The notes below the pieces were generated by a model. That model was not told the DNA's origin. It was given only the letters and a program-made list of their open reading frames with translations, and ran no database searches. 64,000 bases of DNA. Origin: Harmothoe impar. Lineage: Eukaryota > Annelida > Polychaeta > Phyllodocida > Polynoidae. Where the stretch lies: the NCBI GenBank assembly GCA_947462335.1, contig OX381705.1, positions 33,627,570-33,691,569 of the forward strand. Direction: 5' to 3'. Numbering within the stretch: the first letter of the stretch is position 1; each line of letters begins with the position of its first letter. The translations under genes and the position numbers were made by a program. Shown in pieces: positions 16,141 through 63,282 of this stretch.

Positions 16141-16551
16141 AATACTGGACCTTTCACTTCCATATATAGAAAGGATATTGCGCCGCACGTTATAGAAACG
16201 TGATCTACATGTTATTCTCATTCAGTACATAGACACCGATTCACAGGATACATTCAGAACCGACGAGTATCACTGACTAGTATCTCACTCATTGAAGCAA
16301 TGTAAAATACAGCGCATGTCCAATGCGAGATGGAAAGGCCAACACCCACAAGGTGATCTATGACGTGTATCCCTCTGCATTCTGGGCCTGTTGTGTTATA
16401 GGAGCATTGCTTATACTCGCAAGACTTCTCACATACTATTGCAAGTTTCGAATACCACTATTGCATATTTTATGGCACTGCACCTCTGCATATTGGACCT
16501 CATTGACTTGTTTCAGGATAAAATGGGGTATTTGGACTCACTTCATGATAA

Positions 16552-16747
16552 TGTAGCGGGCACGTATCGCTCGGGGCAGCCCGAGCGTGCGTGGAGAGCG
16601 CATTGCCCGCCCATGGTAGCTCAGGTACCGTAGCAGAGCAGTGAGAAGCAGCTGGCCCTGTGGTGCAGCGGTAGCATTCTCAACTCCGGAGCGGAGGGAC
16701 CGGGGTTCGATTCCCCGTGGGGCTCGACGTTTTCACTGCCTTCTACA
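16552..16747 (+). repeat. TRIM 5' LTR
   Basis: This 196-bp direct repeat begins TGTAGCGGGCACG and ends GCCTTCTACA. It contains a short hairpin (GCTCGGGGCAGCCCGAGC) in its first 40 bp, then the tRNA-like unit and a T4 run near its end. No TATA box is visible, unlike the gypsy LTR. Confidence 0.9.
16654..16725 (+). tRNA. tRNA-Arg(CCG)-like sequence in the 5' LTR
   Basis: The 72-nt segment has canonical tRNA geometry: 7-bp acceptor with wobbles, D arm GTGC/GCAT, 7-nt anticodon loop CTCCGGA (U33 present, anticodon CCG), 5-nt variable region and a perfect T arm CGGGG-TTCGATT-CCCCG. The A box TGGTGCAGCGG (16661-16671) and B box GGTTCGATTCC (16704-16714) match the Pol III consensus exactly. A TTTT terminator follows at 16730-16733. 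The anticodon stem CTCAA/GCGGA is largely unpaired, so this is probably a tRNA-derived promoter rather than a working tRNA. Confidence 0.7.
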
Positions 16748-16748
16748 C

Positions 16749-16766
16749 TGGTGCCGTGACCAGGAT
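16749..16766 (+). promoter_or_regulatory. Primer binding site, tRNA-His type (TRIM)
   Basis: TGGTGCCGTGACCAGGAT starts one base after the 5' LTR. Its complement ends in TCACGGCACCA, which fits the 3' acceptor strand plus CCA of metazoan tRNA-His. The same 18-mer follows the 5' LTR of the gypsy element. Confidence 0.8.
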
Positions 16767-16864
16767 CTGCAGATCCTGGGTTGGGTACTTGAGCGGTTTC
16801 AGCTTCTGCTAGGTAGGTCCTCGTGGCCTGACAAGCGACCTAGCAAAAGTCTGAAGGGGAGTAA

Positions 16865-17060
16865 TGTAGCGGGCACGTATCGCTCGGGGCAGCCCGAGCG
16901 TGCGTGGAGAGCGCATTGCCCGCCCATGGTAGCTCAGGTACCGTAGCAGAGCAGTGAGAAGCAGCTGGCCCTGTGGTGCAGCGGTAGCATTCTCAACTCC
17001 GGAGCGGAGGGACCGGGGTTCGATTCCCCGTGGGGCTCGACGTTTTCACTGCCTTCTACA
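16865..17060 (+). repeat. TRIM 3' LTR
   Basis: This second 196-bp copy is identical to the 5' LTR by reading and is preceded by the purine tract GAAGGGGAGTAA. It is followed by ATAA, matching the bases before the 5' LTR. Confidence 0.9.
16967..17038 (+). tRNA. tRNA-Arg(CCG)-like sequence in the 3' LTR
   Basis: This is an identical copy of the tRNA-like unit in the 5' LTR, shifted by 313 bp, with the same A and B boxes and TTTT at 17043-17046. Because it sits in the 3' LTR, transcription from it would terminate inside the LTR. Confidence 0.7.
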
Positions 17061-17084
17061 ATAATTATGGTTACTATTAGTTTA

Positions 17085-17400
17085 GGGAGTGATCATTTAT
17101 TATCAACAGGGGGGGGGTGGTGGGTTTGGGGGGGGGGCAAAAAAATTTGGACCCCTTGACCGGGGGGGGCAAAAAAATTTGGACCCCTCTTGGGGGGGGG
17201 CAAAAAAATTTAACCTGTTTTGAGCCAAAAAGCCCGCGCGTTACTATGCTTCAAAGGGCCCGCGCGCAAGCCGATTTTCGACCCTAAGGGGGGGGGGGGT
17301 AAAAAATTTTGACCCCTTGACCAGGGGGGGGTAAAAAATTTCGCACGCTCCGCGCGGAAACCCACCACCCCCCCCCTGTTGTTGAAAAATGATCACTCCC
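17085..17400. mobile_element. 316-bp MITE with poly-G interior
   Basis: Termini GGGAGTGATCATTT and AATGATCACTCCC are inverted repeats flanked by TTA on both sides. The interior alternates GGGGGGG runs with AAAAAATTTGGACCCC words, and the arms GGTGGTGGGTTT/AAACCCACCACC pair too. A decayed relative lies at about 36420-36540. Confidence 0.8.
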
Positions 17401-20632: not shown

Positions 20633-20949
20633 TGTAGGGGTTTACTACGGTAATCATTTCTATCCAGGTGACCGAGGAGGGTTAGTTCGGGTTGTTCCAT
20701 GTCGATTTCATATCCAAAGGGGGTATATAAACCTCCCCTCCTCGTATAGTCGCCAGTCAGTGCAGGCCCGGCTGACTCCCAGCATTACCCTACCCCAATC
20801 ACTAGATTGAACCAGGACTGCTTCGTCTTACCCTTCGGGTTAAGACTAGATTCAATTGTAATAGGGATAGGTTGAATAAAAACACTCTTTCTACTTCGCA
20901 CTTGGAAACTGACGTTCTTGTTCTCTTTCTGAGATTCCGAACCACTACA
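20633..20949 (+). repeat. Gypsy 5' LTR, 317 bp (shortened)
   Basis: It begins TGTAGGGGTTTAC and ends CGAACCACTACA. It has a TATATAA box at 20724-20730 and AATAAA at 20875-20880. Relative to the 3' LTR it lacks 98 bp after GGGTTGTTC in the U3 region upstream of the TATA box. Confidence 0.95.
20724..20730 (+). promoter_or_regulatory. TATA box of the 5' LTR
   Basis: TATATAA lies in GGGGGTATATAAACCTCCCC, about 90 bp into the LTR and about 150 bp upstream of the LTR's AATAAA. The 3' LTR has the same box at 30429-30435. Confidence 0.65.
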
Positions 20950-20950
20950 C

Positions 20951-20968
20951 TGGTGCCGTGACCAGGAT
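20951..20968 (+). promoter_or_regulatory. Primer binding site, tRNA-His type (gypsy)
   Basis: TGGTGCCGTGACCAGGAT follows the LTR end by one base. It is complementary to a 3' end TCACGGCACCA typical of tRNA-His and identical to the site in the TRIM at 16749. Confidence 0.8.
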
Positions 20969-21141
20969 CAGTTTTCGAGTAGCAGTCAGGTGAACCTAGA
21001 GTAGAGAAGGATGGGGACGGTAACGTCCCGGAGCGGAACAACCCAGTTGTTCCGACCAGTTCCGAGGGTTTCATACGTGAAGCCGAAGGAACTTTGAATC
21101 CAGGGGTGACCTTGGAGGAAGGAGAGTTGGAATCCACCAGA

Positions 21142-23313
21142 ATGGACCAACTGGATCCAGAAGAGGCGAGGGGGTTCACACCGAACTTCATTGCCACTCG
21201 GGGTCAAATCATGTTGAACACTGGCCGTTCTTTGTTCAACATGACTGATTCAGTGTTCTTTCCCGGAGGAAAGAAGGGAGGGAACCAGAAAGGCTCATTT
21301 CTGGACCCGACGGTACTGGAAATACCGCCGAAACCCCTTCGGGTCGTACCCGAAGGAGGTCCTGTCGTCGGGACCCGACCTGATCTCAATCAGGACGACA
21401 CTTTGGACCGGGACAACGCTTACCGGAACAAAGAAGAAATGAACAAGCAGTACGACGCTCTGCACGACGAACTAATTTCGTTGATCTCTGAAAGGGATCG
21501 GTACATCCTAGAAAATAGGCAGGTCCATCAAGATATGGAGTGGAGAACGGATCAATTGACCCGTGACAACCAGCTGATCCAAGATCAGATGGAGAAGAAT
21601 CAGGAAATCCTGAGGGATGAGAAGAAAAGATTATCCGAGTTGGGTCAAGCTAACCGGAAGTCTTATGCCTGTCAACAGCAATATAAGGCGGACCTAGAAA
21701 GATACTCTAGGGAATGGCACGCCGCCAAAGACGCCCCGAACCAGCAGGTTGAGGACAATGAGGCAGTAAGAGCTGCTATCATCGAAGCGAACGAAGAGCT
21801 AAGTCAGAAAAAGCTAGAGAGCATGCAGGCAGTATCCATACTGGAAGCCAGACGGGTAGAGTTGGAAATCTACCTAGGCAACCAAAAGGTACCAGACCCA
21901 GAGGTGACCCTCACCCCTGGGGAAGGAGTAGAGAACCCTCCACTCCAGGGAGTTCTAAAAACCAACACCCGCTACCCTTCCGGGGGACAGGTCGAGAAGG
22001 ATGTGTATTATGCATCTGCTCCCCCGGGTCCATCGGTAACTATCGACCCCACGGCATATTCCGCAGGGAATACGTCCGGAGTCACTAGTTATGACACCTT
22101 GAACCCCTTTTCTGGGGATAGTCCATCTCGGTATGGAGCTGGTCCACCTCCTTCGGGAACGAACAAAGACACCACCACCCATGAGGATCAACAAGGTGGG
22201 TGGTATGGTTATGATAATTGGGGCGACCTGATCTTTTATCATAACCAGACGACGAAGACAGGAGCCGGGAGGACTCCGGGCAAGCAAGCCCAGGGGCACG
22301 CTACCCGAGGCAAGAAAGCCTGGGAAGGAACTTCTGCTGGATGGTCTGGGGACCAGAACCCACAGTACCCTCGTACTGATAGTCCTGATAAGCCTAGAAA
22401 TAGTCAAGGAAGTCGGCCCAGGCCCCAGCACCATGACCAGACAACAACAGGACCTGATCCCACCTACCCGGGTACCACCTCTCGCCCTCGACCCACCCGG
22501 TTTGCTGGGTGCGAACCAGTCTCCCCAGTCCGGCCATTGACCCGAAGAACCTCAATGGCCCCCGGACTGAGACAGGTTTATGATACTGATCCTTGTATCA
22601 AGAGCCTTGGCTTGGATAGCTATAGCCGAGGACAGGATGCTACTGAAGTAATGGATTGGAGCCGGAATCTATCAGACCAACTGATAGAAGGGGCCACCAG
22701 AGGTGCCCGACGCACCGCCAGGATCACCAAACCCTACAAGGGGAAAGGACCCTGGAAGGACGAATATCAGATATTTGTGGATGACTGCAAATACAATGGA
22801 TGGTCCAAAGAAGACTCATTAGGAGCCTTCGTCATCTGGCTAAATGATGGGCCAGGTAAATCCGCCGTCTCCCAATGGAGAAGTACATATGGCCCTTCGG
22901 GTACATATGATCAGCTCGAAAGTACTGCTGTATATATCTTCGGGAACCTGGTGACCGTGGATCACTGTTTGGTCTTCAAAGGACGAACCCAGAAACCGAA
23001 GGAGTCCCCGAAGATATATGGTTTGGAGCTTCAACGGATCCTGCATCAGGCAAGACCCGAATGGGCTAGAGATGCAGATTACTACATCGAGACTCTTTTC
23101 GTTCGGTTCATTAGTGGATTGAGTGACCCTGATCATCAAGAACTAACCAGGAAAGCTTGGAAAAGCGATTCCTCCCTAGCTGATCTATTCTTAACCATAG
23201 ACAGTTATGAGAAGAAGAAAATTCTTCTTGCCGGATTGGTACCTAACCAATCCCGAATGTCAGCGGTTGATGACTATAGCAGCAGCGGGGGATCTTCGGA
23301 TGAGGATTCCTAG
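21142..23313 (+). CDS. gag: Gag polyprotein (capsid part), ends at early stop
   Basis: The frame is open from about 20980, but its first ATG is at 21142, giving 723 residues. It has a charged N-terminal region, then a coiled coil about residues 90-200 (heptads in NKEEMNKQYDALHDELISL and following). A long Pro/Gly/Thr-rich disordered middle follows. The C-terminal capsid-like domain has the aromatic and hydrophobic pattern of Retrotrans_gag families, from about WKDEYQIFVDDCKYNGW to LFLTIDSYEKKK. The frame ends at TAG 23311-23313, before a nucleocapsid. Coding similarity continues past this stop, so the TAG may be a nonsense mutation or a read-through site. Gag packages element RNA into particles. 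Confidence 0.8.
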   Translation: MDQLDPEEARGFTPNFIATRGQIMLNTGRSLFNMTDSVFFPGGKKGGNQKGSFLDPTVLEIPPKPLRVVPEGGPVVGTRPDLNQDDTLDRDNAYRNKEEMNKQYDALHDELISLISERDRYILENRQVHQDMEWRTDQLTRDNQLIQDQMEKNQEILRDEKKRLSELGQANRKSYACQQQYKADLERYSREWHAAKDAPNQQVEDNEAVRAAIIEANEELSQKKLESMQAVSILEARRVELEIYLGNQKVPDPEVTLTPGEGVENPPLQGVLKTNTRYPSGGQVEKDVYYASAPPGPSVTIDPTAYSAGNTSGVTSYDTLNPFSGDSPSRYGAGPPPSGTNKDTTTHEDQQGGWYGYDNWGDLIFYHNQTTKTGAGRTPGKQAQGHATRGKKAWEGTSAGWSGDQNPQYPRTDSPDKPRNSQGSRPRPQHHDQTTTGPDPTYPGTTSRPRPTRFAGCEPVSPVRPLTRRTSMAPGLRQVYDTDPCIKSLGLDSYSRGQDATEVMDWSRNLSDQLIEGATRGARRTARITKPYKGKGPWKDEYQIFVDDCKYNGWSKEDSLGAFVIWLNDGPGKSAVSQWRSTYGPSGTYDQLESTAVYIFGNLVTVDHCLVFKGRTQKPKESPKIYGLELQRILHQARPEWARDADYYIETLFVRFISGLSDPDHQELTRKAWKSDSSLADLFLTIDSYEKKKILLAGLVPNQSRMSAVDDYSSSGGSSDEDS

Positions 23314-23703
23314 GGAGAAGAGGCCATTGGGGCTGTAGCCTTCGGTGGGAAGCGCCGGGACAAAAAGTCCGGTGATAACAAGAGGCGGAAACCTTTTGAT
23401 AAAACATCCTCTAGCAAAAAGCCAGAGAAACCCACAGGGGATAATTCAAAAACCCCTTCCAAACCTCCCTCGGGTCCACCAGAACCCAATGTTCCGAAGA
23501 AATCGGAACCCGACTAATCCCTTGGGTTGGTAGAAGCCATGATGCAACATATGGTGACCCTGTTTGATAAAAAACAGGAACGGAGGATAGACCCGAGCTG
23601 AGTACTGTAACTTGTTACAGATGTCAAGAGAAGGGGCATTATGCCTCCACATGCACAGCGGAAAAACCTGTGATGCGATTCTCCGGTAAGAACTCGGAAA
23701 ATT
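23314..23703 (+). pseudogene. Broken gag 3' end with nucleocapsid zinc knuckle
   Basis: After the TAG the gag frame continues as a Lys/Pro/Ser-rich basic tract (KRRDKKSGDNKRRKPF) to TAA at 23515-23517. The zinc knuckle CYRCQEKGHYASTC (CX2CX4HX4C) at 23613-23654 is in a different frame. It ends at TAA near 23703. The knuckle binds RNA in functional Gag. Two stops and a frame change mean this copy cannot make an intact nucleocapsid by ordinary translation. Confidence 0.75.
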
Positions 23704-23794
23704 AAAGGGGATCCCTGAGGGAGGCGACTCAGAGATCCCGAAGGAAATATGCCATGATACTCCTGACAGGACGGGAGTAAGTTCACACTCAGTA

Positions 23795-24661
23795 GTGACG
23801 TCCGGACATATGGGGGACAAGCAGGCGCAGCTTGGGAACCCTGGGGCCGGGGCCATCAGCATTCCAGTCATACATTCGGGAAATGAGTCGGGGAAACCCG
23901 GTGCTGATGCAGAGGAGTATAGTGCAATGGTTTGTGGAACCAGGCTCCCCTTAGATCACCCTTGCCTGGAATACATAAGAGGGCGTGGATTAGATCTAGG
24001 TACTGAGAGTGACTTACAGAAGTTCACTAGTAACCCTTCATTGAATGGAGGAAAAAGGTGGTATTTGGCCTCTGTGAAGGGTAGAGTCGGGGAATTTCTG
24101 ATAGATACTGGGGCTAGCCACAGCATCATCTCTCGGAAGTTCTACACTCTTCTGTTGGGCACAAATGATGACCTTAAAATGAGGGTAAATGCGTGCACAG
24201 CCGGCGGTAGCAGATTGCGGACGTTTGGATGTACTTTGCTGTGTATCTCAGTGGTGGGGAAGGAGTTTGTATTCTCCCCAACCATTGCTGAGATCGAGGA
24301 TGATGGTATCATAGGGATGGACTTTGCCGACCTGTTCGGAATGATGTTGAACCCGAAGACAGGTGAATTGTCCATACAGAGTCCCTATAATATCAAGGCA
24401 CAATGTGTGCTGAGAGTTATCAGTAGTGTAGCAAGTGTAGCACAGACGGTGAAACTTCCACCGGGAACCACATGTGATGTGTTGTTCAGCGCTTCCTCTG
24501 AACTCAGAGGAAGGGCCGGGGTCATGGAACCCGACGTAGCTTATCTTCAATCCCTCCGGTTGGAATCTGCTGATACGTTGTGGGAAATGCCCAATGGACT
24601 CTTGTCCCCATATCCAATCCTGGTGTTCATATGGTATATCTCCAGAAAGGCGCTAAAGTAG
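23795..24661 (+). pseudogene. Protease region of pol, truncated by frameshift
   Basis: The 288-codon frame contains the aspartic protease motif FLIDTGASHSII at about residue 105 and the partner motif GIIGMDFADLFG about 65 residues later. This is the usual spacing of retroviral-type proteases. Retroelement proteases work as dimers to cut the polyprotein. The frame is lost after VMEPDVAYLQ...ADTL, where this copy lacks one base (GTTGTGGG against GTTGGTGGG in the second copy). The final 25 or so residues are therefore out-of-frame noise. Its frame would be continuous with the RT frame without the deletion and the 541-bp duplication. Confidence 0.8.
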
Positions 24662-25593
24662 GCAGTGTGGTACTCGCGGAGGCGGTCACCAGCAGCCTTC
24701 TGGGGTTGCCATCCGAAGGTCCGCCGGATACGGTCGTTATTGAGGAGGAATTAGAGAAACTAATTCAGGATGCTTCGGAATTAGATGCGAAGGAGCAGAG
24801 GGACCTTCGGGTGATGTTAAAACGTTGCCAAAGGGCCTTCGCGTTCCCAGGAGAACCATTAGGACGTACTGATAAAGTCCTACACGGAATTGACGTGGGG
24901 GAAGGTTCCTCCTTTAAAATTCCTTACCATCGGCTACCCCTAAAGAAGAAAGAGGTAGCAGAGACGGAAATCAATAAGATGATTAAAGATCACGTTATTG
25001 TACCCAGTTCCAGCCCCTGGAGTAGTCCAGTCTGTATGGTCACAAAAAAAGAAGGGCCGGGGTCATGGAACCCGACGTAGCTTATCTTCAATCCCTCGGG
25101 TTGGAATCTGCTGATACGTTGGTGGGAAATGCCCAATGGACTCTTGTCCCCATATCCAATCCTGGTGTTCATATGGTATATCTCCAGAAAGGCGCTAAAG
25201 TAGGCAGTGTGGTACTCGCGGAGGCGGTCACCAGCAGCCTTCTGGGGTTGCCATCCGAAGGTCCGCCGGATACGGTCGTTATTGAGGAGGAATTAGAGAA
25301 ACTAATTCAGGATGCTTCGGAATTAGATCCGAAGGAGCAGAGGGACCTTCGGGTGATGTTAAAACGTTGCCAAAGGGCCTTCGCGTTCCCAGGAGAACCA
25401 TTAGGACGTACTGATAAAGTCCTACACGGAATTGACGTGGGGGAAGGTTCCCCCTTTAAAATTCCTTACCGTCGGCTACCCCTAAAGAAGAAAGAGGTAG
25501 CAGAGACGGAAATCAATAAGATGATTAAAGATCACGTTATTGTACCCAGTTCCAGCCCCTGGAGTAGTCCAGTCTGTATGGTCACAAAAAAAG
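24511..25593 (+). repeat. 541-bp tandem duplication inside pol
   Basis: The segment from AAGGGCCGGGGTCATGG (24511) recurs from 25052 and runs to about 25593. The copies differ by only a few bases (for example TCCGGTTGG/TCGGGTTGG, GATGCGAAG/GATCCGAAG, CACCATCGG/TACCGTCGG forms) and a 1-bp indel. The junction occurs at short GA-AGGG similarity. 541 is not a multiple of three, so the duplication shifts the frame. Confidence 0.95.
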
Positions 25594-27953
25594 ATGGGAC
25601 CATAAGGTTCTGTATAGACTACAGGAAGCTGAATGGGATGACGAAGAAGAATTCATATCCTCTGCCGAGGATTGATGAGACCATTGACTCGCTAGGAGGG
25701 AATGAATGGTTCTGTACCATAGACTTACAGTCTGGGTACTGGCAGGTCGGGATGAAACCTGCCGACATGGAGAAAACGGCCTTCTCTAGCCATGTAGGAC
25801 TGTTCCAGTACAACGTCATGCCCTTCGGGTTGTGCAATGCGCCAGCCACATTTGAAGCCATGATGGAGACATTACTGAGCGATCTACTATGGAAGAAATG
25901 TCTAGTTTACCTAGATGACGTCATTATCTTTGGGAAGACATTCCAGGGCTGTCTAGACAACCTGGAAGAGGTCCTCCAGAGAATAATGAGTAATGGGTTG
26001 AAATTAAAACCTAAGAAATGTCAATTGTTCAAAAAAGATATCAATTTTCTGGGGAGAATCATTTCCACTCAGGGGGTAAAAGCAGACCCGGAGAAAATCA
26101 GAAGTGTGACTGAGTGGGAAAAGCCCAGGTGTCCCAAGGATGTCCGTTCATTCCTTGGGTTTTGCTCGTATTATCAAGATTTCTTACCAGGTTATGCTCA
26201 GGTGAGTTATCATATCCAATCTCTGTCACATTGGACACCTGGTAGGCGCAAAGAAGTTTTTCCATGGGGAAAAGAACAAGACGAGTCGTTTGAGTCAATC
26301 AAAAGACTCTTTGTTGAGACACCAGTTCTGAAGTATCCGACAGCCGCCGGACACTTCATTCTGGATACTGATGCCAGCAATGAGAGCATTGGGGCTGCTT
26401 TGAGTCAGGTCCAAGACGGAAAAGAAGTTCCCATTGCTTTTGCTAGCAACACCATGAACAAGTCACAGAGGAACTACTGTACCACCAAGAGGGAACTCTT
26501 GGCGGTGATTGTTTACACAACAAAATATAAACATTTTTTGTGGGGCTCAGATTTTACGCTGAGGACTGACCATTCATCTTTGAGGTGGTTACTGAATTTT
26601 AAGGATGCAGAAGGCATGATAGGCCGGTGGTTAGCACACTTATCAGAGTTCGGGTTGGAACAGAAGCAGATCCAACACCGACCCGGTGTGAAGCATGTAA
26701 ATGCTGACGCACTATCCCGCAGGCCCATTAGGAGTTGTGGAAATGAAAAATGTGACGATTGTGGAGCCCATGGGGCGGTCCTGGCTGGAGTCCGGTTGCC
26801 ACTGGAATCCAGAGGAACTGGCATCCTTCAGTGGTCTATGGAGACTATCCGAAGGTTCCAGGAAAAGGATCCGAGCGTGGGGAGGTTGCTCGGGTTAATT
26901 CCTAAGGGAATCAAACCTGTTCGACCTGAAATCTCTCTGGAAAATCGAGAGATGAGGAGATTTTTAGCTCAATGGACAGAGCTGGAAGTATCCGAAGGTG
27001 TTCTATATAGATGGAAGATCAATCCTTCGGGAAGAAGGATCAGACAGGTAGTGATCCCCTCCGGTATGAGGAGGGATTTGATGTATTATTGTCACGGTCA
27101 TATGACCAGTGGTCACTTTGGGAAGAAACGTTCACTGGAACGCCTGTCCCGAAGGTACTACTGGCCAGGAATGAGCACCGACTTATTACGTTGGATCGCC
27201 ACTTGTCCTGATTGCTGCAAGAATAAACCCGGCCCTGGGTTGGGTAAAATGCCCTTGTCCCAGGAACTGTTCGGAGTTAGGTTTGCGAGAATAGCAATCG
27301 ACATCATCAGTGGTTTTAAAACAACCCCTGATGGTAACACGTGTATGATGGTAGTAACCGACTACTATACTAAGTACACGAGGGTGTTCCCCTTACCCGA
27401 TCACAAAGCCGCGACTTGTGCGAAGGCCTTTGTGAAGGGTTGGGTATTACACCTCGGAGTGCCTCTAATGATGCATAGTGACCAAGGCCGGGAATTTGAG
27501 TCGGATCTATGGCAAGAGATGTGCCATAGGTTAGCAATCTGTAAGACCCGAACCAATCCCTACCGACCCCAGAGTGATGGGATGGTGGAAAGGTTCAACA
27601 GAACGCTGATTCAGGTTCTGAAACCCTTGGTGAATGAAAGTATGACAGATTGGGATGAACAATGTGAATATGTATGCCATGCATACAACAGCACTGTTCA
27701 TAAAAGCACCAATTGCACCCCAAACTTATTAGTGTTTGGGGAAGACATGATCATGCCAGCCGATCTTGTTTTTGGGGTGGTCGGGTTGAATCCCGACGCA
27801 CCATGTCACGTGATGTTTGTGGAATCACTAAGAGACCAGTTTAAATTCGCATATGAACTTGTTAGAATTGCTTCCCATAAAAACCTCACTAATACTCCAG
27901 CAGAGCTGTTGGTTGTGAAAGGTTCGGCTACTACCCGAAGCACCTGTTTATAA
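25065..27953 (+). CDS. pol: Pol: reverse transcriptase, RNase H, integrase
   Basis: The 962-codon frame has RT with the FCIDYRKLN block, FCTIDLQSGYWQV, GLFQYNVMPFGLCNAPATFE and the catalytic YLDD at about residue 281. RNase H follows (DTDASNESIGAALSQ, TKRELLAVIV, TDHSSLRWLL). The integrase has an HHCC zinc finger (HGHMTSGHF to CPDCCKNK) and a DD35E core. The Asp residues lie in IAIDI near 744 and HSDQG near 804, and the Glu in VERF near 840. The N-terminal 180 residues duplicate the end of the protease frame. After integrase the frame ends early at TAA 27951. The usual C-terminal region is short or altered, so a deletion or frameshift near 27880-27950 is likely. Confidence 0.92.
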   Translation: MEPDVAYLQSLGLESADTLVGNAQWTLVPISNPGVHMVYLQKGAKVGSVVLAEAVTSSLLGLPSEGPPDTVVIEEELEKLIQDASELDPKEQRDLRVMLKRCQRAFAFPGEPLGRTDKVLHGIDVGEGSPFKIPYRRLPLKKKEVAETEINKMIKDHVIVPSSSPWSSPVCMVTKKDGTIRFCIDYRKLNGMTKKNSYPLPRIDETIDSLGGNEWFCTIDLQSGYWQVGMKPADMEKTAFSSHVGLFQYNVMPFGLCNAPATFEAMMETLLSDLLWKKCLVYLDDVIIFGKTFQGCLDNLEEVLQRIMSNGLKLKPKKCQLFKKDINFLGRIISTQGVKADPEKIRSVTEWEKPRCPKDVRSFLGFCSYYQDFLPGYAQVSYHIQSLSHWTPGRRKEVFPWGKEQDESFESIKRLFVETPVLKYPTAAGHFILDTDASNESIGAALSQVQDGKEVPIAFASNTMNKSQRNYCTTKRELLAVIVYTTKYKHFLWGSDFTLRTDHSSLRWLLNFKDAEGMIGRWLAHLSEFGLEQKQIQHRPGVKHVNADALSRRPIRSCGNEKCDDCGAHGAVLAGVRLPLESRGTGILQWSMETIRRFQEKDPSVGRLLGLIPKGIKPVRPEISLENREMRRFLAQWTELEVSEGVLYRWKINPSGRRIRQVVIPSGMRRDLMYYCHGHMTSGHFGKKRSLERLSRRYYWPGMSTDLLRWIATCPDCCKNKPGPGLGKMPLSQELFGVRFARIAIDIISGFKTTPDGNTCMMVVTDYYTKYTRVFPLPDHKAATCAKAFVKGWVLHLGVPLMMHSDQGREFESDLWQEMCHRLAICKTRTNPYRPQSDGMVERFNRTLIQVLKPLVNESMTDWDEQCEYVCHAYNSTVHKSTNCTPNLLVFGEDMIMPADLVFGVVGLNPDAPCHVMFVESLRDQFKFAYELVRIASHKNLTNTPAELLVVKGSATTRSTCL

Positions 27954-28265
27954 TTTGAGCTCCCAGCGCCCTGCGGGCGCGGGAAAAGAACTGGGTCAAT
28001 GAGTGACCTAGTTAGGGCAGTCTCGCGGAAGGCCCGAGACGCGCATGGATGCGCGTGACCTCTGCGCACAGGGGTCGTTTTGGTTCATTAGATTTCGAAT
28101 CTTCGTCGGCACCGTGTGCTGGCCAAGGAGGAGGGTCTAATAGGAACCAGATTCACACGTTAAAAGTAGGTGAATAAGTTTCAAAAAGGAGAACAGGTCC
28201 TCCACAAAGACCTGTAGCATCTGTTAGGACTCTTATTTAGTAGAAATAAGAGCGCCCAACCCAGC

Positions 28266-29486
28266 ATGGCCGCACGGCAGCTAGAGTTGGGCGGAGGGGA
28301 CCGGCCACACAAGATGGCCGAGCTGCCCCACGAAGACAGCGCTGGTGTCGCCAGCCCTGTTACTCTCTCCGAGGAGCAGCTCCTCGAAGAGGAAGACATG
28401 GATGTATCCATGTCTGCATCAGTCCTCACTGAGGCTGAACGACGGAAACTTCATGAGGAAGATCGTCTTCTGGCTCTAAAAATAGAAAAGGAAGAAGCCC
28501 AACATCTAAAGGATACGTGGGATATGACTGGTAATCCGAATGTCGATCCGGATAACTACCCGAAGGAGGAGAAGCCAGCTAGACTGGTGAAGTCAACTGG
28601 TAAGAGTTGCTACGATGGGAGGGAGATGAATCTCCACCCAGACGTAATGTCCGCCACGGAGATAGGTCTACCTAAACCTATCCCAAACGACATAGTGGAT
28701 ATGTTGCACGAATTTATTGATGCAGGAACTCTCCGCATCATGCCCCCAGAGTGGTTCAGCACCTGGGAAAATCTACAGCAAGGCCTCCGGGTGTGTAAAG
28801 CACTTCGGAAGGGCTTGTTCGACGCCGAGATGGCCGACGTCGGGGTGTATGTACCTCGGATGACACGCATCTCGGATGACGTCTCGTGTGGGGCATTCGG
28901 CGCCACTACCCTTGCTGTAGCTTGCTACCGCAGGTACAACCCAGTAGGAATGTTAGAACCGAAATCAGTTGAAGGATATCGGGCCTTAATACGGTCCAAC
29001 TTATCCTACGAAGTCTATCAGATAGACTACAACCGCATGAAAACTATCATGGCGGAGAAGGGCCTCAGCCGTCACGAACCAATCGTCGAGACGGTGGAGG
29101 AAATGGTCAAGACTCGGACTAAGAGTTTGACCCAGGCAGAGGAGAAGGCTGCAGCTAAGGCTAGCAGGGACATCCGAAAGGGTGACCCTGTAGCCCGCAC
29201 GAGCAGCCCCCACAGTCAGGATATACGGACTGTGGTAGTTGGAGGGGGTGAATCCCCTTTCGTCCTGCCTCGGGGTCGCCAAGCCCTGAGGAATGAGTCA
29301 GCAAGGTTGAGGAGAGTACCAGACGCCCAGCGGATTATGACCGATGGGTCTGTATCAGATAAATCTGATACGAGCAGTACGTCCCAAGGGAAGCACCTCA
29401 CTCAGTCGTCCAAGATGAAGAGGAGAGCACCTCACTCACTCGTCCAAGATGAAGAGGAGAGCACCTCACTCAGTCGTCCAAGATGA
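28266..29486 (+). CDS. Extra ORF downstream of pol, unknown function
   Basis: This 406-codon frame starts ATGGCCGCACGG on the element's coding strand, about 310 bp after pol and inside the LTRs. It has an acidic Glu/Leu-rich start and a charged helical segment LTEAERRKLHEEDRLLALKI. A globular-looking middle follows (residues about 130-260, with Trp, Cys and aromatics, for example PEWFSTWENLQQGLRVCKAL). The Lys/Arg/Ser-rich tail ends in a 34-bp tandem repeat. There is no signal peptide or membrane segment, so it is not a typical envelope protein. I recognise no family. It could be an accessory protein or a captured host gene. Codon use and GC match the element. Confidence 0.65.
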   Translation: MAARQLELGGGDRPHKMAELPHEDSAGVASPVTLSEEQLLEEEDMDVSMSASVLTEAERRKLHEEDRLLALKIEKEEAQHLKDTWDMTGNPNVDPDNYPKEEKPARLVKSTGKSCYDGREMNLHPDVMSATEIGLPKPIPNDIVDMLHEFIDAGTLRIMPPEWFSTWENLQQGLRVCKALRKGLFDAEMADVGVYVPRMTRISDDVSCGAFGATTLAVACYRRYNPVGMLEPKSVEGYRALIRSNLSYEVYQIDYNRMKTIMAEKGLSRHEPIVETVEEMVKTRTKSLTQAEEKAAAKASRDIRKGDPVARTSSPHSQDIRTVVVGGGESPFVLPRGRQALRNESARLRRVPDAQRIMTDGSVSDKSDTSSTSQGKHLTQSSKMKRRAPHSLVQDEEESTSLSRPR

Positions 29487-29510
29487 AGAGGAGAGCACCT
29501 CACGTACTCG
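29395..29510 (+). repeat. Three 34-bp tandem repeats at the end of the extra ORF
   Basis: CGTCCAAGATGAAGAGGAGA recurs at 29407, 29441 and 29475. The 34-bp unit is not a multiple of three, so each copy is read in a different frame and the ORF's last residues depend on copy number. Confidence 0.9.
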
Positions 29511-29519
29511 TCCCGAAGC

Positions 29520-30239
29520 AGATCCGGAGATCAGCCCAGTACCCAACTTTTTTTTAAGTCGACATAGCACTTTTTGTGAGGTTCTGCAGTATACCGCTGC
29601 AGTTCCAGATTATTTATTAACGTACATTCTCGTCCATGTTTCTAATATATATATTTATGGTGCTGATACACTACGATAGTTTATGATACTCAGGATATTA
29701 CCAAAGATCTGTATAAACTGTGTTCAAACGTTGACCACTTCGGGTGGATGTAAATAAGAGTATGTATATCTAGTAGTAGTAGATATATTTTGTTATAGAA
29801 AAAACGGAGGTGATGAAGAAAATTTTGATTCTGGTGCGGAGAGAGGTTATCATGTATCCCTATGTAATTTTTTTTCTAGGCTTGTGAGTCCTTTTTAGGA
29901 CTGGTAATAATTCTTCGGAATTGATACACTTGCCGATCATTTTTTTAAAGGTCCTTATCAGGACTATATATATGTATTTTATATCAGAAGATAGTTACAA
30001 ACTGTTAGTAACTACTTCGGGTTCTACTTAACGTAAAAGTCATATCATAAGGTAACTATGACAGTGTAATGCCTTAATTTCAATAATATATTGTTTATCA
30101 TATGTTACATATGACTAATTGTAGTAAAACCCTTTTTATGTATAGTGTATAGACAAACTACTTCTGGTTGTCAAACTATTTTTATTATGAGTCTACTACT
30201 CAGGTTTTTACCACACCTAGTGTTGTCTAGGGGGGGTAG
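29520..30239 (+). other. Non-coding 3' region and polypurine tract of the gypsy element
   Basis: This AT-rich stretch contains several TTCGGGTT/TTCGGATG words and no supported gene. It ends with CTAGGGGGGGTAG at about 30228-30239, a purine tract directly before the 3' LTR that would prime plus-strand DNA. Confidence 0.7.
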
Positions 30240-30654
30240 TGTAGGGGTTTACTACGGTAATCATTTCTATCCAGGTGACCGAGGAGGGTTAGTTCGGGTT
30301 GTTCCCGCCTGGCGTTAGTGTGGGCGGTATCCCAGAGGGGGCGACTGTCCTCTCTCGGGTACTGCGCACCACGTTTCAGGCGGGAACTTACCGACACGTG
30401 ACCATGTCGATTTCATATCCAAAGGGGGTATATAAACCTCCCCTCCTCGTATAGTCGCCAGTCAGTGCAGGCCCGGCTGACTCCCAGCATTACCCTACCC
30501 CAATCACTAGATTGAACCAGGACTGCTTCGTCTTACCCTTCGGGTTAAGACTAGATTCAATTGTAATAGGGATACGTTGAATAAAAACACTCTTTCTACT
30601 TCGCACTTGGAAACTGACGTTCTTGTTCTCTTTCTGAGATTCCGAACCACTACA
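30240..30654 (+). repeat. Gypsy 3' LTR, 415 bp (full length)
   Basis: It begins TGTAGGGGTTTAC and ends CGAACCACTACA. It contains 98 bp absent from the 5' LTR, between GGGTTGTTC and CATGTCGATTTC. That segment itself starts CCGCCTGGCG and has GCCTGAAA-type complements (CAGGCGGGAA), so it could fold. TATATAA lies at 30429-30435 and AATAAA at 30580-30585. Confidence 0.95.
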
Positions 30655-58315: not shown

Positions 58316-59071
58316 CTGACAGAGGGTGAGCACAAGGGGGGCACAGGGTTCACTTTATCCAGGCCAAGGTGACACGGCTGTCAAAGAGGGTGTGTGTTGT
58401 AAGGAGAAGCATTTTACACAACACCCTCACACCCTGCACTGAGCCTATACCAGGTCTTGATGTCACCAGACCAAGTTTTCTTACATGCTAAATCAATGCC
58501 TTCAGCCTACATGCATACATCTCCTTATATTTCTGAGATTTAGTTTTGCTGATATAGATAAATAAGAGACCAGGGGTTCCCGCTATGGCTTAAGTACCCG
58601 TGGCCCGGTGTCAATGTGCTTCAGGTAAGCCTCAATAGGGATTACAGAGTGTCACCGGAGATCGCCGTTCTACACCCCACCCTCAGGATAATTCTACCTG
58701 CGCCCACTCCAGAGAGGAAATATTTGATCAGGATTTTGTGATTTCTGAAAAGGGGTGTGTGGACATGGTGGAAGGGGCATGGGGGAGGGGGTTGGACGTG
58801 GGTGTATAAGGGCTGAATGGGGTTACTCTGAGGGGGGGAAATATGTGGTGGAGCTGATAATGATGGAATGAAGTGGTAGGGTAGATGATGGGTTTGGGAA
58901 CACTGTATTGTTAACAGTGATCCCAAAAATATTATAATTTTTAGCGTAAACTAACAGTAGATTCTACTATTCATGTACACTATAATACCGAAGAAAACAC
59001 TGTAGAACTATATAGTATACTCTACTGCTTATCCATACTATGACCTTGATGCACTCCCATTCGGACTGAAC

Positions 59072-60055
59072 ATGTGGAAGGCCACCACTATAAAAACCAA
59101 AGATGGACTAGGTTTCAGATCGGAATATAACCCGTTATCCAACCTGTACCCGTGTCAAGTTGAAAACAACAACCAAGTGTATTCTTCTATTGAACAGGCC
59201 TACCAGCATAGTAAGGCGACTGCAGCAGGAGATACCCAGGCCGCCAGTGATATTATGGCTGCAGAAGACCCCTATGTCATGATGAAACTTGGAGCAGAAG
59301 TAGTGCCCATTCAGGATTGGAACAAAGGTGCAACCAAGCTTATGTTCAAGCTAATAAAGAGCAAATTTAGCCCAGCCAACATGGCAGATATCCTCCTGCA
59401 AACAAAGGATAACAGGCTATATGAACTAACATATGATAAAACATATGGAGCAGGCAGACATCTTGGAAACGCCAGGGGCTTATCCCAGGAAAATACGTCA
59501 GGTGGAAATCTCTTAGGCCTACTACTAGAAAAGGCCCGTGGAGAGCTCAAACAAGCTGCAGCGGATGTCCAGAATGGATCTAACCCTCCTACAACCGGTG
59601 CCGAAGACGCAGACAAGAGCAACCCCTGGGACATTCGCATACATGTTCCTACTGATGACCCTCCAGCCCCCGTGCTACAGCCAGACAATGGAAATGCGTA
59701 TGTACCCAAAGCCAAGGTGATACCTGCACCAGTTGTCACACCGCCCGTCCAACCCGATCCTGCAGAAGAAGCGACTGCAAAACCCAACATTCCGGTAGCT
59801 ATACCTCCAGCACAAGAAAGTGATCTCAGTGGTGCAGTACAAGACATATGTGCTAAGGACTCACTCATACTGTCATACCTTGAAAGAGATCTCTCTAACA
59901 GAGGCGCGGCCCCAGAGGAACCAAGCTATGCTCTAAAAGAACTTATACAAGACATCCAAGCCGCTGCAGACCAACCACCAACACCTGGTAGTGACAATTT
60001 TGCAAGCTCGACGCCTACACGGCTCAACCTGAGTTCAAGGGTTCAAGACATTTAA
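59072..60055 (+). CDS. NADAR (YbiA-like) domain protein, candidate LINE ORF1
   Basis: This intronless 327-codon frame has ATG at 59072. Residues about 12-160 form a NADAR domain: FRSEYNPLSNLYPC matches the family's F-x-LSNFYP start, and YSSIEQAYQHSKA matches the W-x-T-x-E-H-x-Y-Q-A-x-K helix, with Glu41 as the likely catalytic residue. The segment WNKGATKLMFKLIKSKF matches the R-x-x-V/M-x-x-x-K-F helix, and GAGRHLGNARGLS then GGNLLGLLLEKAR matches the G-x-N-x-L-G-x-x-L-M-x-x-R end. Known NADARs are N-glycosidases acting on riboflavin intermediates or removing ADP-ribose from DNA guanine. The C-terminal 165 residues are Pro/Ala-rich and disordered, ending with amphipathic VQDI motifs. It lies 377 bp upstream of the RT ORF on the same strand. 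Confidence 0.8.
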   Translation: MWKATTIKTKDGLGFRSEYNPLSNLYPCQVENNNQVYSSIEQAYQHSKATAAGDTQAASDIMAAEDPYVMMKLGAEVVPIQDWNKGATKLMFKLIKSKFSPANMADILLQTKDNRLYELTYDKTYGAGRHLGNARGLSQENTSGGNLLGLLLEKARGELKQAAADVQNGSNPPTTGAEDADKSNPWDIRIHVPTDDPPAPVLQPDNGNAYVPKAKVIPAPVVTPPVQPDPAEEATAKPNIPVAIPPAQESDLSGAVQDICAKDSLILSYLERDLSNRGAAPEEPSYALKELIQDIQAAADQPPTPGSDNFASSTPTRLNLSSRVQDI

Positions 60056-60432
60056 TCACATAATAAGCGTCTGTGTAGCCAACCAGTATTAACTAATTAA
60101 TTACAACAAAATGTGTATTAATGTAAAATATGAATTACCGGTATTTATTTATCTATTTTGCTAGATTTTTGCTATCAAAAGAAAATATGTGAACGGGTGT
60201 CAACCCCAAATTATAATTTATATAAGACTAGTTAGTTCCCTCCCCCTACATGAAATCCAGCCGCTGCCAAAGAAAGTACGAGGTATGGGTGGCCACAAGA
60301 GCCGAAGCCCTAAACCTCTTTTATGTTATATGTCTTGTGTAAACTTTTTTGTTTTGTTGTTGGATATAAAGGTTATTATTATAACTGATACTTTAGCAAA
60401 TATTTCCTGTGAAATGGTATGTACAGTATCTA
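60056..60432 (+). other. Inter-ORF spacer of the LINE
   Basis: This is AT-rich, with stops in all plus frames and no recognised gene. A spacer of this length is long for a two-ORF LINE, where ORFs often overlap or nearly abut. That leaves open whether ORF1 and ORF2 belong to one transcript. Confidence 0.5.
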
Positions 60433-63282
60433 ATGGCTGAAAACAGCATACTACCGGGTAAAGGTCTGAGCATATTGCATCTAAATGCTAGAAGTATACG
60501 GTGCAAATTTCCACAATTAAAAGTAGAGCTCTGGAACAAAGATATCGAAGTATTAAGTTTTTCTGAATCGTGGCTCACAGATGTAAATATAGACTCAGAC
60601 TTTGACCTACCTGGGTACAATCTATTTAGATTGGACAGGCAACGTGAGAAAAATGCAGGTGGTGTATGTACATATGTACAAGAGCATTTAGTATGTGATC
60701 CTGACACTTTTGCTGCATTAAACAAAAGCGTATTAGATATAGAAGTCCAATGGCTGGTAATATCGAAAGGTATGGCGAAAAACATTTTATTGGCCAATAT
60801 TTATAGACCTCCTGATGGGAATAAAATGAAATTTATAGACGAATTGTATGCATTAGTTGGTAAAATACCAAATATTGATGATTATGACGTAATATTGACA
60901 GGGGATTTCAATATCAATGTGCTATCTGAAGACCATGTAAAAGAAACTTTGTACGCTAAATTTGAGGATTATTCTATGAGACAGCTTATAACGTCACCAA
61001 CTCGTATTGCAGCGACTAAAACATGTATTGATTTAATCTTCACAAATGTGATCAATGTAAATTCTAGTGGAGTAGCCAATGTGAATATTTCTGACCATCT
61101 ACCTGTATATATTAGAATTAAGCACATAAAAAGAAATCCATGTAAAAATGAGTTTACCGGTAGATCGTATAAGAAATATAATAGTGATGTCTTCAAGGCA
61201 CATTTTGACGAGTGTTCATGGGAAGAATTTTCTGATTCTCAAGATGTAGAAGAATGCTGGTCTATATATTATAATAACATGTCAAAATCTTTGGATTATG
61301 ATTGCCCTGTGAAGAAATTTGTCATAAAGAATAAGGACGAGCCATGGTTAACGCCCGAATTAAAGGTACAGATTGCTGAAAAAAATCAAGCATTAGCAAA
61401 GGCTAGGGCCTCAAATACTGTGTTAGATTGGCATATAGCCAACGAGCTTAAAAATGACATGTCCAGCAAAATCAAAGAGGCTCATAGAGTGCATATTGTT
61501 GATGAGGTTGTGAATAATGTAGACGAGCCCAAGCAGTTTTGGGCGGCCATGAAAGAGTTATTATCAAAGGGAAAAAATAATAAGCAAATTAACTTGAAAA
61601 ATGATGATGGTGATTCCATAGAGCCTGAAAAAACTGCTGACTATATCAATACATTTTTTGCTGGCATAGGTCCAAAATTAGCCTCTAAACACGACTCTGA
61701 CTGGTCATTTGATGGGGTACCGGTAGATAATGTAATGCCTGATTTTTCTTTTGAAAATGATGAGATAGGTAAAGTAGTCGGAAATTTAAAGACAAACAAG
61801 GCTTCTGCAGTAGATTATATTTCGACCCAATCATTCAAGGATTCAGTTTCTTGCAATATTGAACGTTTTGCCAAAATAATCAATTTATCAATTTTTAATT
61901 CTAAAATTCCTATTTCTTGGAAGCAGGCACAGGTCACTCCTTTGCCAAAATCTGGAAATTTAAATGATGTATCAAATTTCAGACCGGTAAGCCAATTACC
62001 GGTACCTGGCAAGGTATTAGAAAGATTAATACACACTAAGCTGCTCTCACACTTAGATGTTAATGGTATTTTATTGAAGGAGCAAGGTGGTTATAGAAAA
62101 ACATGCTCTACTATTGACACGATAAGCGTTCTTACAAATGATGTTTTAAGAGAAAGAAACATTGGAAGATACACCATGGCCTGTTTTATCGATATAAAAA
62201 AAGCTTTCGATTCTTTAGACTATTTAATCTTATTACGGAAATTAAAATTATATGGTATAAAAGGAAAAAACTTAAAATGGATTGAAAATTATTTTAAAGA
62301 TCGGACTCAGATCACAAAGGCAAATGGTGTATCTTCAGACGTTGTAAACATGACATGTGGCGCCCCGCAGGGGAGTATACTTGGTCCTTTGTTTTTCTTA
62401 ATATATGTGAACGACCTTGGGGCCTCCTTTAATAATGTAAAATCCTTATTATATGCTGACGACACTGTATTGTATGTAGCAGGATCTGATCTAAAAGCCA
62501 TGGAAACACAAATGCAATCGTCCTTAAATCACTTTATACAATGGTCATCAAAAAATAAGTTAACCTTAAATGAGTCAAAGACTAAATTAATGCTTCTAGC
62601 TTCAAATAGAAAATACAAAACACTTCCTTTAGATATAATTAATATAAAAGCTAACCAAGAAAAATTAAAATTTGTCACTTCTTATAAATATTTAGGCGTC
62701 ACACTGGATCATGAACTAAATTATAATCAACATATAAAAGAACTTAGGAAAAACCTGGCTTATAGATCACATCTTCTGGGTCGTCTGAAATTCTTTGTAC
62801 CTACAGATATTCTATTATTAATTTATAAAACTTATGCTTTGCCACTGTTCGATTATGCTGATGTATTATATAATGCATCTAGTAACGAATCGTTAAACCT
62901 CCTCCAGGGCATTCAGAATAGGTGCTTAAAGTATTGTTTAAAGTTACCGGTACTGACAGCAACTGATTATGTACATCAAGAAGCTAAGCTACCAATGTTA
63001 CATAACCGTCGTCTGTACCATGCCAGTATTTATGGGTATAAAAGGGCTCATAAAGTCGAATTTCTTGATATTAGGCCTAGGGCAACCAGAAATGCTAGAT
63101 CTCCCTTGTTAAAATACTACCTGATACATTCGTCATCATATGAAAAAAGCATTGAGGTTCATGTTGCTCAGGTGTGGAACGCCTTACACCACACGGTCAG
63201 AGGGGCAGAGAGTATATCCTACTTTAAGCGTTTAATGAAAATTAAATTGGAAGAATCGATACCGAAAAATATTAGATTGTAA
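60433..63282 (+). CDS. LINE ORF2: endonuclease and reverse transcriptase
   Basis: The frame is open from 60409, but its first ATG is at 60433, giving 949 residues. Residues about 12-230 form an APE-like endonuclease (LSILHLNARSIRCKF, then ESWLTD, NAGGV, LANIYRPP, the ILTGDFNIN metal-binding motif and ISDHLPV). RT spans about 490-760 with NFRPVSQLPVPGKVLERL, GGYRKTCST, CFIDIKKAFDSL, GAPQGSILGPLFFLIYVNDL and the catalytic YADD near residue 673. The C terminus has the conserved QNRCLKYCLKL and FDYAD region found in CR1/Jockey-group elements. The protein nicks DNA and primes reverse transcription at the target. All key motifs are present with no stops. Confidence 0.93.
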   Translation: MAENSILPGKGLSILHLNARSIRCKFPQLKVELWNKDIEVLSFSESWLTDVNIDSDFDLPGYNLFRLDRQREKNAGGVCTYVQEHLVCDPDTFAALNKSVLDIEVQWLVISKGMAKNILLANIYRPPDGNKMKFIDELYALVGKIPNIDDYDVILTGDFNINVLSEDHVKETLYAKFEDYSMRQLITSPTRIAATKTCIDLIFTNVINVNSSGVANVNISDHLPVYIRIKHIKRNPCKNEFTGRSYKKYNSDVFKAHFDECSWEEFSDSQDVEECWSIYYNNMSKSLDYDCPVKKFVIKNKDEPWLTPELKVQIAEKNQALAKARASNTVLDWHIANELKNDMSSKIKEAHRVHIVDEVVNNVDEPKQFWAAMKELLSKGKNNKQINLKNDDGDSIEPEKTADYINTFFAGIGPKLASKHDSDWSFDGVPVDNVMPDFSFENDEIGKVVGNLKTNKASAVDYISTQSFKDSVSCNIERFAKIINLSIFNSKIPISWKQAQVTPLPKSGNLNDVSNFRPVSQLPVPGKVLERLIHTKLLSHLDVNGILLKEQGGYRKTCSTIDTISVLTNDVLRERNIGRYTMACFIDIKKAFDSLDYLILLRKLKLYGIKGKNLKWIENYFKDRTQITKANGVSSDVVNMTCGAPQGSILGPLFFLIYVNDLGASFNNVKSLLYADDTVLYVAGSDLKAMETQMQSSLNHFIQWSSKNKLTLNESKTKLMLLASNRKYKTLPLDIINIKANQEKLKFVTSYKYLGVTLDHELNYNQHIKELRKNLAYRSHLLGRLKFFVPTDILLLIYKTYALPLFDYADVLYNASSNESLNLLQGIQNRCLKYCLKLPVLTATDYVHQEAKLPMLHNRRLYHASIYGYKRAHKVEFLDIRPRATRNARSPLLKYYLIHSSSYEKSIEVHVAQVWNALHHTVRGAESISYFKRLMKIKLEESIPKNIRL

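Follow-up and report, generated by a model that had tools for sequence, protein, structure and literature searches.

The DNA stretch analyzed here (the window, 64 kb) contained at 16552..17060 a 509-bp element, which consisted of two identical 196-bp LTRs around an internal region of 117 bp. The LTRs started with TGTAG at the 5' side and ended with CTACA at the 3' side. The features of the element, together with a Gypsy element downstream of it, were as follows (window coordinates, strand, feature):

16548..16551, no strand: left target site duplication ATAA, the same as 17061..17064
16552..16747, +: 5' LTR, 196 bp, TGTAG...CTACA, identified by its identity with the 3' LTR
16552..16653, +: putative U3 with a GC-rich hairpin, placed by its position upstream of the Pol III unit
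16654..16725, +: tRNA-like unit, 72 nt, putative start of R (ARAGORN; Rfam RF00005, 35.4 bits)
16661-16671, +: A box TGGTGCAGCGG of the 5' LTR unit
16704-16714, +: B box GGTTCGATTCC of the 5' LTR unit
16730..16733, +: T4 run, resembling a Pol III terminator, 4 nt after the unit, putative end of R
16734..16747, +: putative U5, from the T4 run to the LTR end
16748..16864, +: internal region, 117 bp, non-coding, with two hairpins
16749..16766, +: primer binding site (PBS) for tRNA-His; a host tRNA-His(GTG) gene has a 3' end complementary to the 15 bases that follow TGG
16760..16779, +: PBS hairpin, a perfect 20-bp palindrome in the window copy
16850..16864, +: purine tract (PPT), ending in GGGGAGTAA, directly before the 3' LTR
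16865..17060, +: 3' LTR, 196 bp, identified by its identity with the 5' LTR
16967..17038, +: tRNA-like unit of the 3' LTR (ARAGORN; Rfam)
17043..17046, +: T4 run of the 3' LTR
17061..17064, no strand: right target site duplication ATAA, the same as 16548..16551
20633..30654, +: Gypsy element, in one clade with the proposed partner

A sequence-only reading of this DNA had listed LTR ends TG...CA, a PBS, a purine tract and a 4-bp duplication, and all of these were present, with ATAA on both flanks. The same reading had described the element as lacking coding sequence, and no stop-to-stop frame of 150 codons overlapped it. On the + strand of the element, T4 runs occurred only at 16730-16733 and 17043-17046. 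The hairpin in the putative U3 had a fold z of -2.1, and 3 of 200 shuffles folded equally well. A second A-box-like stretch, TAGCAGAGCAG, was also seen in U3 at 16631-16641, just upstream of the tRNA-like unit, and G-rich short repeats with the core GGGGGGGCAAAAAAATTTGGACCCC were present at 17128-17350, directly after the element.

The tRNA-like unit of the LTRs

First, the whole 64 kb was scanned with ARAGORN, which returned just the two LTR units, at 16654-16725 and 16967-17038. The score of the unit against the Rfam tRNA model was above the cut-off of 29 bits. When the LTR was dinucleotide-shuffled, ARAGORN reported a match in 1 of 2000 sequences, and none was reported in 20 shuffled windows. 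The presence in each 196-bp LTR of a tRNA-like unit with an A box and a B box, followed by TTTT, was thus confirmed by ARAGORN, Rfam and the shuffle controls. The Rfam mascRNA-menRNA model also fell on 16654-16724, with 25.9 bits, well below its cut-off of 42.5. The Rfam scan returned only tRNA above cut-off, and LTR sequence derived from 5S rRNA, which marks Cassandra, was absent.

The unit had been assigned to tRNA-Arg(CCG), but this assignment did not hold. ARAGORN labeled the unit tRNA-?(Arg|Pro) and gave it an anticodon of four bases, 'ccgg'. In a comparison with 12 human tRNAs the nearest were Pro, Gly, Asp, and Trp, while Arg-CCG was only eighth. Among six host tRNAs the best matches were Lys (48/75 columns) and Glu (45/73 columns). 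No isotype is claimed for the unit on this sequence evidence. Nor were all the segment lengths canonical, as had been stated: the ARAGORN drawing showed an anticodon arm of 3 pairs with mismatches and an enlarged loop, and the canonical arm of a functional tRNA gene was found neither in this drawing nor in the variability of the region described below. The fold z of the whole unit was 0.31, no better than that of shuffles. Units of such LTRs are called as tRNA genes by tRNA gene finders, as was shown again here.

Copies in the source genome and conservation of the LTR

The 509-bp element was used to search its source genome, which comprises 1.51 Gb in 736 contigs, with the window on contig 2. 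With 40 of 1000 candidates scored, at least 45 scored matches were obtained, and 42 of them, including the window copy, were full-length at 94-100%. The other 41 full-length matches lay in 39 stretches that were fetched, which are best matches and not a random sample. An exact 4-bp target duplication was present at 31 of the 39 loci. Among the eight loci that did not have it, L020 was a fusion with Gypsy, L033 carried a duplication that agreed at three of four bases, and in L014, L016, L029, L039, L040, and L043 the first three bases of the duplication matched and an A, the last base of the PPT, adjoined the 5' LTR. Ten further stretches included six exact duplications (L051, L053, L054, L055, L057, and L058); the remaining four were L059, which had the A pattern, L052, in which there was no match, L056, a cut-off copy, and L050, a fusion. 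An A next to the 5' LTR was thus usual where the duplication was imperfect (the six loci named above and L059). In one copy of Gypsy-B, the family in which the fusions described below were found, the base next to the 5' LTR was G, the last base of the Gypsy-B PPT (L095/L097). The flanking PPT-end base may be an unprocessed terminal base retained at integration.

Exact TRIM LTR-PBS junctions numbered 71 in the genome by exact-pattern count. In a search with the LTR, in which 40 of 1396 candidates were scored, eight LTRs looked single: two were solo LTRs with duplications (L053 and L057), one was broken off inside the internal region (L056), four lay within full or tandem elements, and one lay within a fusion. 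Tandem arrays of the form LTR-int-LTR-int-LTR were found at L024, L027, L038, and L051. The two LTRs of an element were compared in 36 elements and showed no difference in 14, one difference in 12, and up to 14 differences in the rest; because the LTR pairs are near-identical, most of the sample is young. The genome check that had been proposed for the element therefore gave many copies, solo LTRs and target duplications, and the two results named beforehand as speaking against it, a lack of further copies with duplications and a unit confined to one insertion, did not occur. There was no match to the element in a plasmid collection, and viral contigs matched neither of two patterns specific for the unit nor a generic one composed of B box, T4, and PBS. 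Two bacterial contigs that matched the generic pattern (L001 and L002) were rejected as chance matches, since neither had a tRNA and the text was like bacterial coding DNA; L001 had no repeats.

Conservation was analyzed in 85 LTRs and 44 internal regions from the 39 fetched loci and the window, and LTR matches that did not span the 196 positions were dropped. The copies were chosen by similarity to the window copy, so that the absolute values are biased low and part of the conservation is youth; the mean minority fraction was 0.005 for the A box and 0.003 for both the B box and T4, but reached 0.046 across the anticodon-arm region; for U3 it was 0.023. This sampling bias does not explain why, inside the unit, the boxes differ from the anticodon arm. 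The B box was kept in 85 of 85 LTRs, and the A box and B box with their spacing in 83 of 85. Each LTR had one run of four or more T, which was exactly four in 84 LTRs and five in one, and 43 of 44 internal regions were free of any T4. The PBS was exact in 39 of 44 internal regions, and their last 18 bases, at the PPT end, were identical in 42 of 44.

These data bear on two other explanations of the unit. That a tRNA-like sequence arose by chance within an ordinary direct repeat is exceedingly improbable, in view of the shuffle controls, the recurrence of the unit across the LTRs, and the copies with target duplications throughout the genome, which contradict it. That the unit is a true tRNA gene, a source of functional tRNA spread by the element, agrees with the ARAGORN and Rfam matches; however, the defective anticodon arm, a fold like that of shuffles, and an anticodon region about which the copies disagree far more than about the boxes make it very unlikely. 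As judged from the sequences, the pattern of conservation is that of a need for a Pol III promoter, not for a tRNA.

Helenus, the probable primer tRNA and the proposed Gypsy partner

The element was compared with Helenus (TRIMp3), a kind of TRIM with tRNA-like LTR sequence that was named by Kojima in 2024 and is described from fungi, animals, and a lycophyte (PMC10886601). Set against this description, the element is a Helenus, and every testable defining feature was found. It has two LTRs, a total length below 1000 bp and no protein genes, box A and a GGTTC box B in both LTRs (with the counts given above), a PBS directly after the 5' LTR, and a PPT directly before the 3' LTR. Its target duplications are of 4 bp (31 of 39 loci, and 6 of the ten further loci), as in animal Helenus, while those of fungi and plants are of 5 bp, and it has dispersed copies, solo LTRs, and tandem arrays, which PMC10886601 also reports. 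According to the same source, the primer tRNA of Helenus is recognized by its 3' end, with tRNA-His among the primers of vertebrate and bivalve families, and the tRNA-like unit is mostly not a functional tRNA. Pol III transcription of Helenus is called putative there, and the Gypsy partner of animal Helenus was derived from PBS similarity. In contrast, the Gypsy partner here is supported by fused copies and not by PBS similarity alone. The earlier description, a TRIM in which both LTRs carry a tRNA-like Pol III promoter, structurally parallel to Cassandra, was thus supported, for a kind already known. Helenus is also mentioned in PMC12859917, and under the names Helenus and TRIMp3 the literature covered yielded nothing further on the element beyond these two papers. 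As far as PMC10886601 was drawn on here, the fusions with Gypsy, the constancy of T4, and the internal hairpins that recur among copies add to the Helenus account.

Other known systems were compared as well. Cassandra of plants resembles the element in having the Pol III promoter of a small-RNA gene in its LTR, no genes, and tandem arrays (PMC10853983, PMC10886601), and its transcription is said to run from unit to unit, 5S to 5S (PMC10886601). However, it carries 5S rRNA and not a tRNA, belongs to plants, and has a methionine PBS (PMC10853983, PMC10886601), and its autonomous partner is not known according to PMC10886601. The Ajax TRIM of nemerteans also has a Pol III promoter in its LTR, but this is a 5S rRNA fragment, and its duplications are of 5 bp (PMC10886601). 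PbTRIM of the harvester ant is an animal TRIM with 4-bp duplications and a PBS to a tRNA 3' end; in contrast, the description drawn on here gives a TATA box as its promoter and does not describe a tRNA-like unit (PMC3532108). SINEs derived from tRNA share the tRNA-like Pol III promoter, but they have no LTR, PBS, or PPT and move by target-primed reverse transcription (PMC10886601). The element, with LTRs, PBS, PPT, and 4-bp duplications, was therefore rejected as a SINE.

The primer was then examined. The PBS, TGGTGCCGTGACCAGGAT, is complementary to CCA plus 15 bases. In the genome, 112 sites matched GGTTCRANTCCTGGTCACGGCA. One of them was read; ARAGORN identified it as tRNA-His(GTG), and its last 15 bases are complementary to the PBS. 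By this complementarity, the primer would be the host tRNA-His. Dozens of 3' ends of the tRNA-His type, mostly 210 bp apart, were seen on contig 3 at ~28.074-28.095 Mb, and on contig 12, at ~62.64-62.77 Mb (L060, L067), there was a tandem unit of ~1.36 kb with Lys, Asn, Leu, Leu, and Thr tRNA genes.

The fold of the internal region had a z of -2.7, and 1 of 200 shuffles was equally good. A Gypsy leader of equal length gave -2.0, with 8 of 200 shuffles equally good; the fold score alone is weak because the Gypsy leader also folds better than most shuffles. Two similar hairpins recurred in 28 distinct internal regions. In the PBS hairpin the stem was mostly kept, with a loop of the type CTGCAG, GGGAC, or CCACCGA, and five sequences lost one pair. 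In the second hairpin, two adjacent pairs were changed on both sides (AU to GC and GC to AU) in three related sequences, perhaps by a single event, and the same three sequences lost the next two pairs. The covariation term was small (-1.09 of -33.55 kcal/mol). In the chosen structure, which was taken from one of the sequences and is favored by this choice, and which excludes the apical pairs in the second hairpin, 801 of 812 cells paired, versus 24-58% when the partners were slid by 1-3 columns. The hairpins may have a role in packaging or priming. A palindromic dimer signal was rejected as a general reading, since the other copies retain the stem and not the palindrome.

We compared the element with Gypsy elements. 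At the LTR-PBS junction, TRIM positions 16743-16767 and positions 20945-20969 of the window Gypsy shared 25 identical bases. The 18-base PBS was expected 0.05 times in the window at up to 3 mismatches and was found twice, both times exactly. The LTRs of the window Gypsy were unequal (317 and 415 bp), with 98 bp extra in the 3' LTR and otherwise one difference; this Gypsy had no matching target duplication, and its pol contained a 542-bp tandem duplication at 24510-25594.

Two TRIM matches, L050 and L020, were found to be embedded in Gypsy-B, where they separate the leader from the 5' LTR. At the protein level, pol of Gypsy-B is 56% identical to pol of the window Gypsy. The insert was one internal region plus one LTR in L050 and int-LTR-int-LTR-LTR-LTR in L020. 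The carrier of L050 had 546-bp LTRs with one difference, the duplication CCTC, and open frames, stop to stop, of 716 codons for gag and 1413 codons for pol, the latter containing domains for protease, RT, RNase H, and integrase. The LTRs of the L020 carrier showed 4 differences in 545 aligned bases, with GTAG and GTAC as flanks. The Gypsy-B type junction, AACTACATTGGTGCCGTGACCA, occurred 812 times in the genome, and its reversed control did not occur. TRIM-type GGAT followed in 21 of the 812 junctions. Six of these clearly entered TRIM internal region and LTR start (L020, L050, L132, L137, L138, and L142), three entered a partial TRIM-like internal region only (L128, L134, and L144), and twelve went on with something else; for the seven loci besides L020 and L050, 151 bases from the junction were read, and the upstream Gypsy LTR is known from its last bases. 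Among the Gypsy-B junctions, the 30 listed first, which all lie on contig 1, were read and none carried TRIM, so fusions are rare. Because at least three kinds of TRIM internal region are involved, fusion occurred or was copied more than once; L137 and L138, which lie 11 kb apart, may be one event. At L129, L131, L133, and L145, sequence that by eye resembled Gypsy coding sequence directly followed the Gypsy-B PBS, and these loci may be deletion derivatives.

The fused copies are direct physical evidence that TRIM and Gypsy-B DNA meet at the PBS. They could have arisen by homologous recombination of TRIM circles or tandem units with Gypsy at the shared PBS, and would then say nothing about a shared particle. 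A one-LTR circle would contribute an internal region plus an LTR, as found in the insert, tandem arrays do occur, and the stretch common to both elements includes the PBS. However, TRIM and Gypsy-B match exactly over just 14 bases at the PBS, or over about 20 with one mismatch. In L020 the right-hand switch falls at an LTR end and not in the PBS, and TRIM cDNA would still be required. We regard recombination as a real possibility, a little short of even. Taking promoter, copies and partner together, it is very probable that the element is a Helenus-type TRIM, non-autonomous, with a tRNA-derived Pol III promoter in its LTR, and mobilized by Gypsy. A point against this is that no similarity was detectable between the LTRs of the TRIM and those of Gypsy-B.

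Transcription of the element

How a Pol III RNA enters the cycle of an LTR retrotransposon is a question for Helenus and Ajax, and the partner is a question for Cassandra (PMC10886601). The terminator within the 5' LTR, which had been pointed out as a problem for a full-length RNA, is a real one, given the T4 run at 16730-16733. Leaky termination at T4 would be the simplest answer. Pol III would start at the tRNA-like unit of the 5' LTR, and many polymerases would stop at the weak T4 of this LTR and give a dead-end RNA of ~80 nt. A fraction of the polymerases would pass beyond the 5' LTR and terminate at the second T4, in the 3' LTR, or continue further. The productive transcript would be ~393 nt long (16654-17046), with a copy of the tRNA-like unit serving as R at each terminus, as LTR retrotransposition requires, and U5, PBS, hairpins, PPT, and U3 in between. 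A Gypsy akin to the one in the window would supply gag, reverse transcriptase, and integrase, which would package this RNA, copy it with tRNA-His as the primer, and insert it.

In yeast, T4 is a weak terminator, which is aided by RNA structure located immediately or 7 nt upstream, and not by structure 18 nt upstream (PMC9278858); the TRIM unit ends 4 nt upstream of T4. Four T are rarely the first terminator in yeast, and five are the minimum in vitro (PMC9278858), although this may not hold for the present host. Many yeast tRNA genes are read through (PMC4937561). With two equal terminators, the yield of correctly ended RNA would be proportional to p(1-p) and largest at p = 0.5. The T run held at four fits this prediction. 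The optimum is a prediction and not a result, and RNAs that pass the second T4 may still be copied.

The genomic RNA had previously been suggested to be made by Pol II, with the Pol III unit keeping chromatin open, but the LTRs gave this suggestion no support. TATAAA, TATATA, AATAAA, and ATTAAA occurred in none of the 85 LTRs. In contrast, the LTR of the window Gypsy carries TATATAAA and AATAAA, and the 5' LTR of the Gypsy that carries a fusion also has TATA-type and AATAAA motifs. Pol II promoters that have no TATA box exist, and a full-length RNA could start from such a promoter in U3, with the Pol III unit serving to keep chromatin open or to produce a small RNA of its own. The terminator-like T4 in the 5' LTR favors this explanation, since Pol III alone must leak. 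We nevertheless consider it unlikely, because both Gypsy families of the same genome have the motifs that the TRIM LTRs lack, and the A box, the B box, and T4 are among the best-kept parts of these LTRs.

For leaky Pol III transcription combined with Gypsy proteins, a fuller scheme can be put forward tentatively, as a possibility that falls clearly short of probable: the fusions would be fossils of a shared particle, formed through tRNA-His priming and second-strand transfer at the PBS, T4 would be held at intermediate strength, and the RNA would be packaged by the Pol II-transcribed Gypsy by way of the internal hairpins. In one genome this family combines numerous similar copies, a host tRNA that fits as primer, and fusions linking it to a Gypsy, which makes terminator leakage, co-packaging, and the function of the hairpins testable.

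Elsewhere in the window, a frame with a NADAR domain (59006-60052; Pfam E 3.5e-21) was found directly upstream of a LINE endonuclease-RT frame (60397-63279). When protein searches were made with the Gypsy, LINE, and NADAR sequences, the few matches that bore a name included ones from the animals Pinctada, Pseudophryne, and Hydractinia and from one bacterial MAG. For the NADAR region, a protein search found two relatives, and the NADAR frame may be the first ORF of the LINE.
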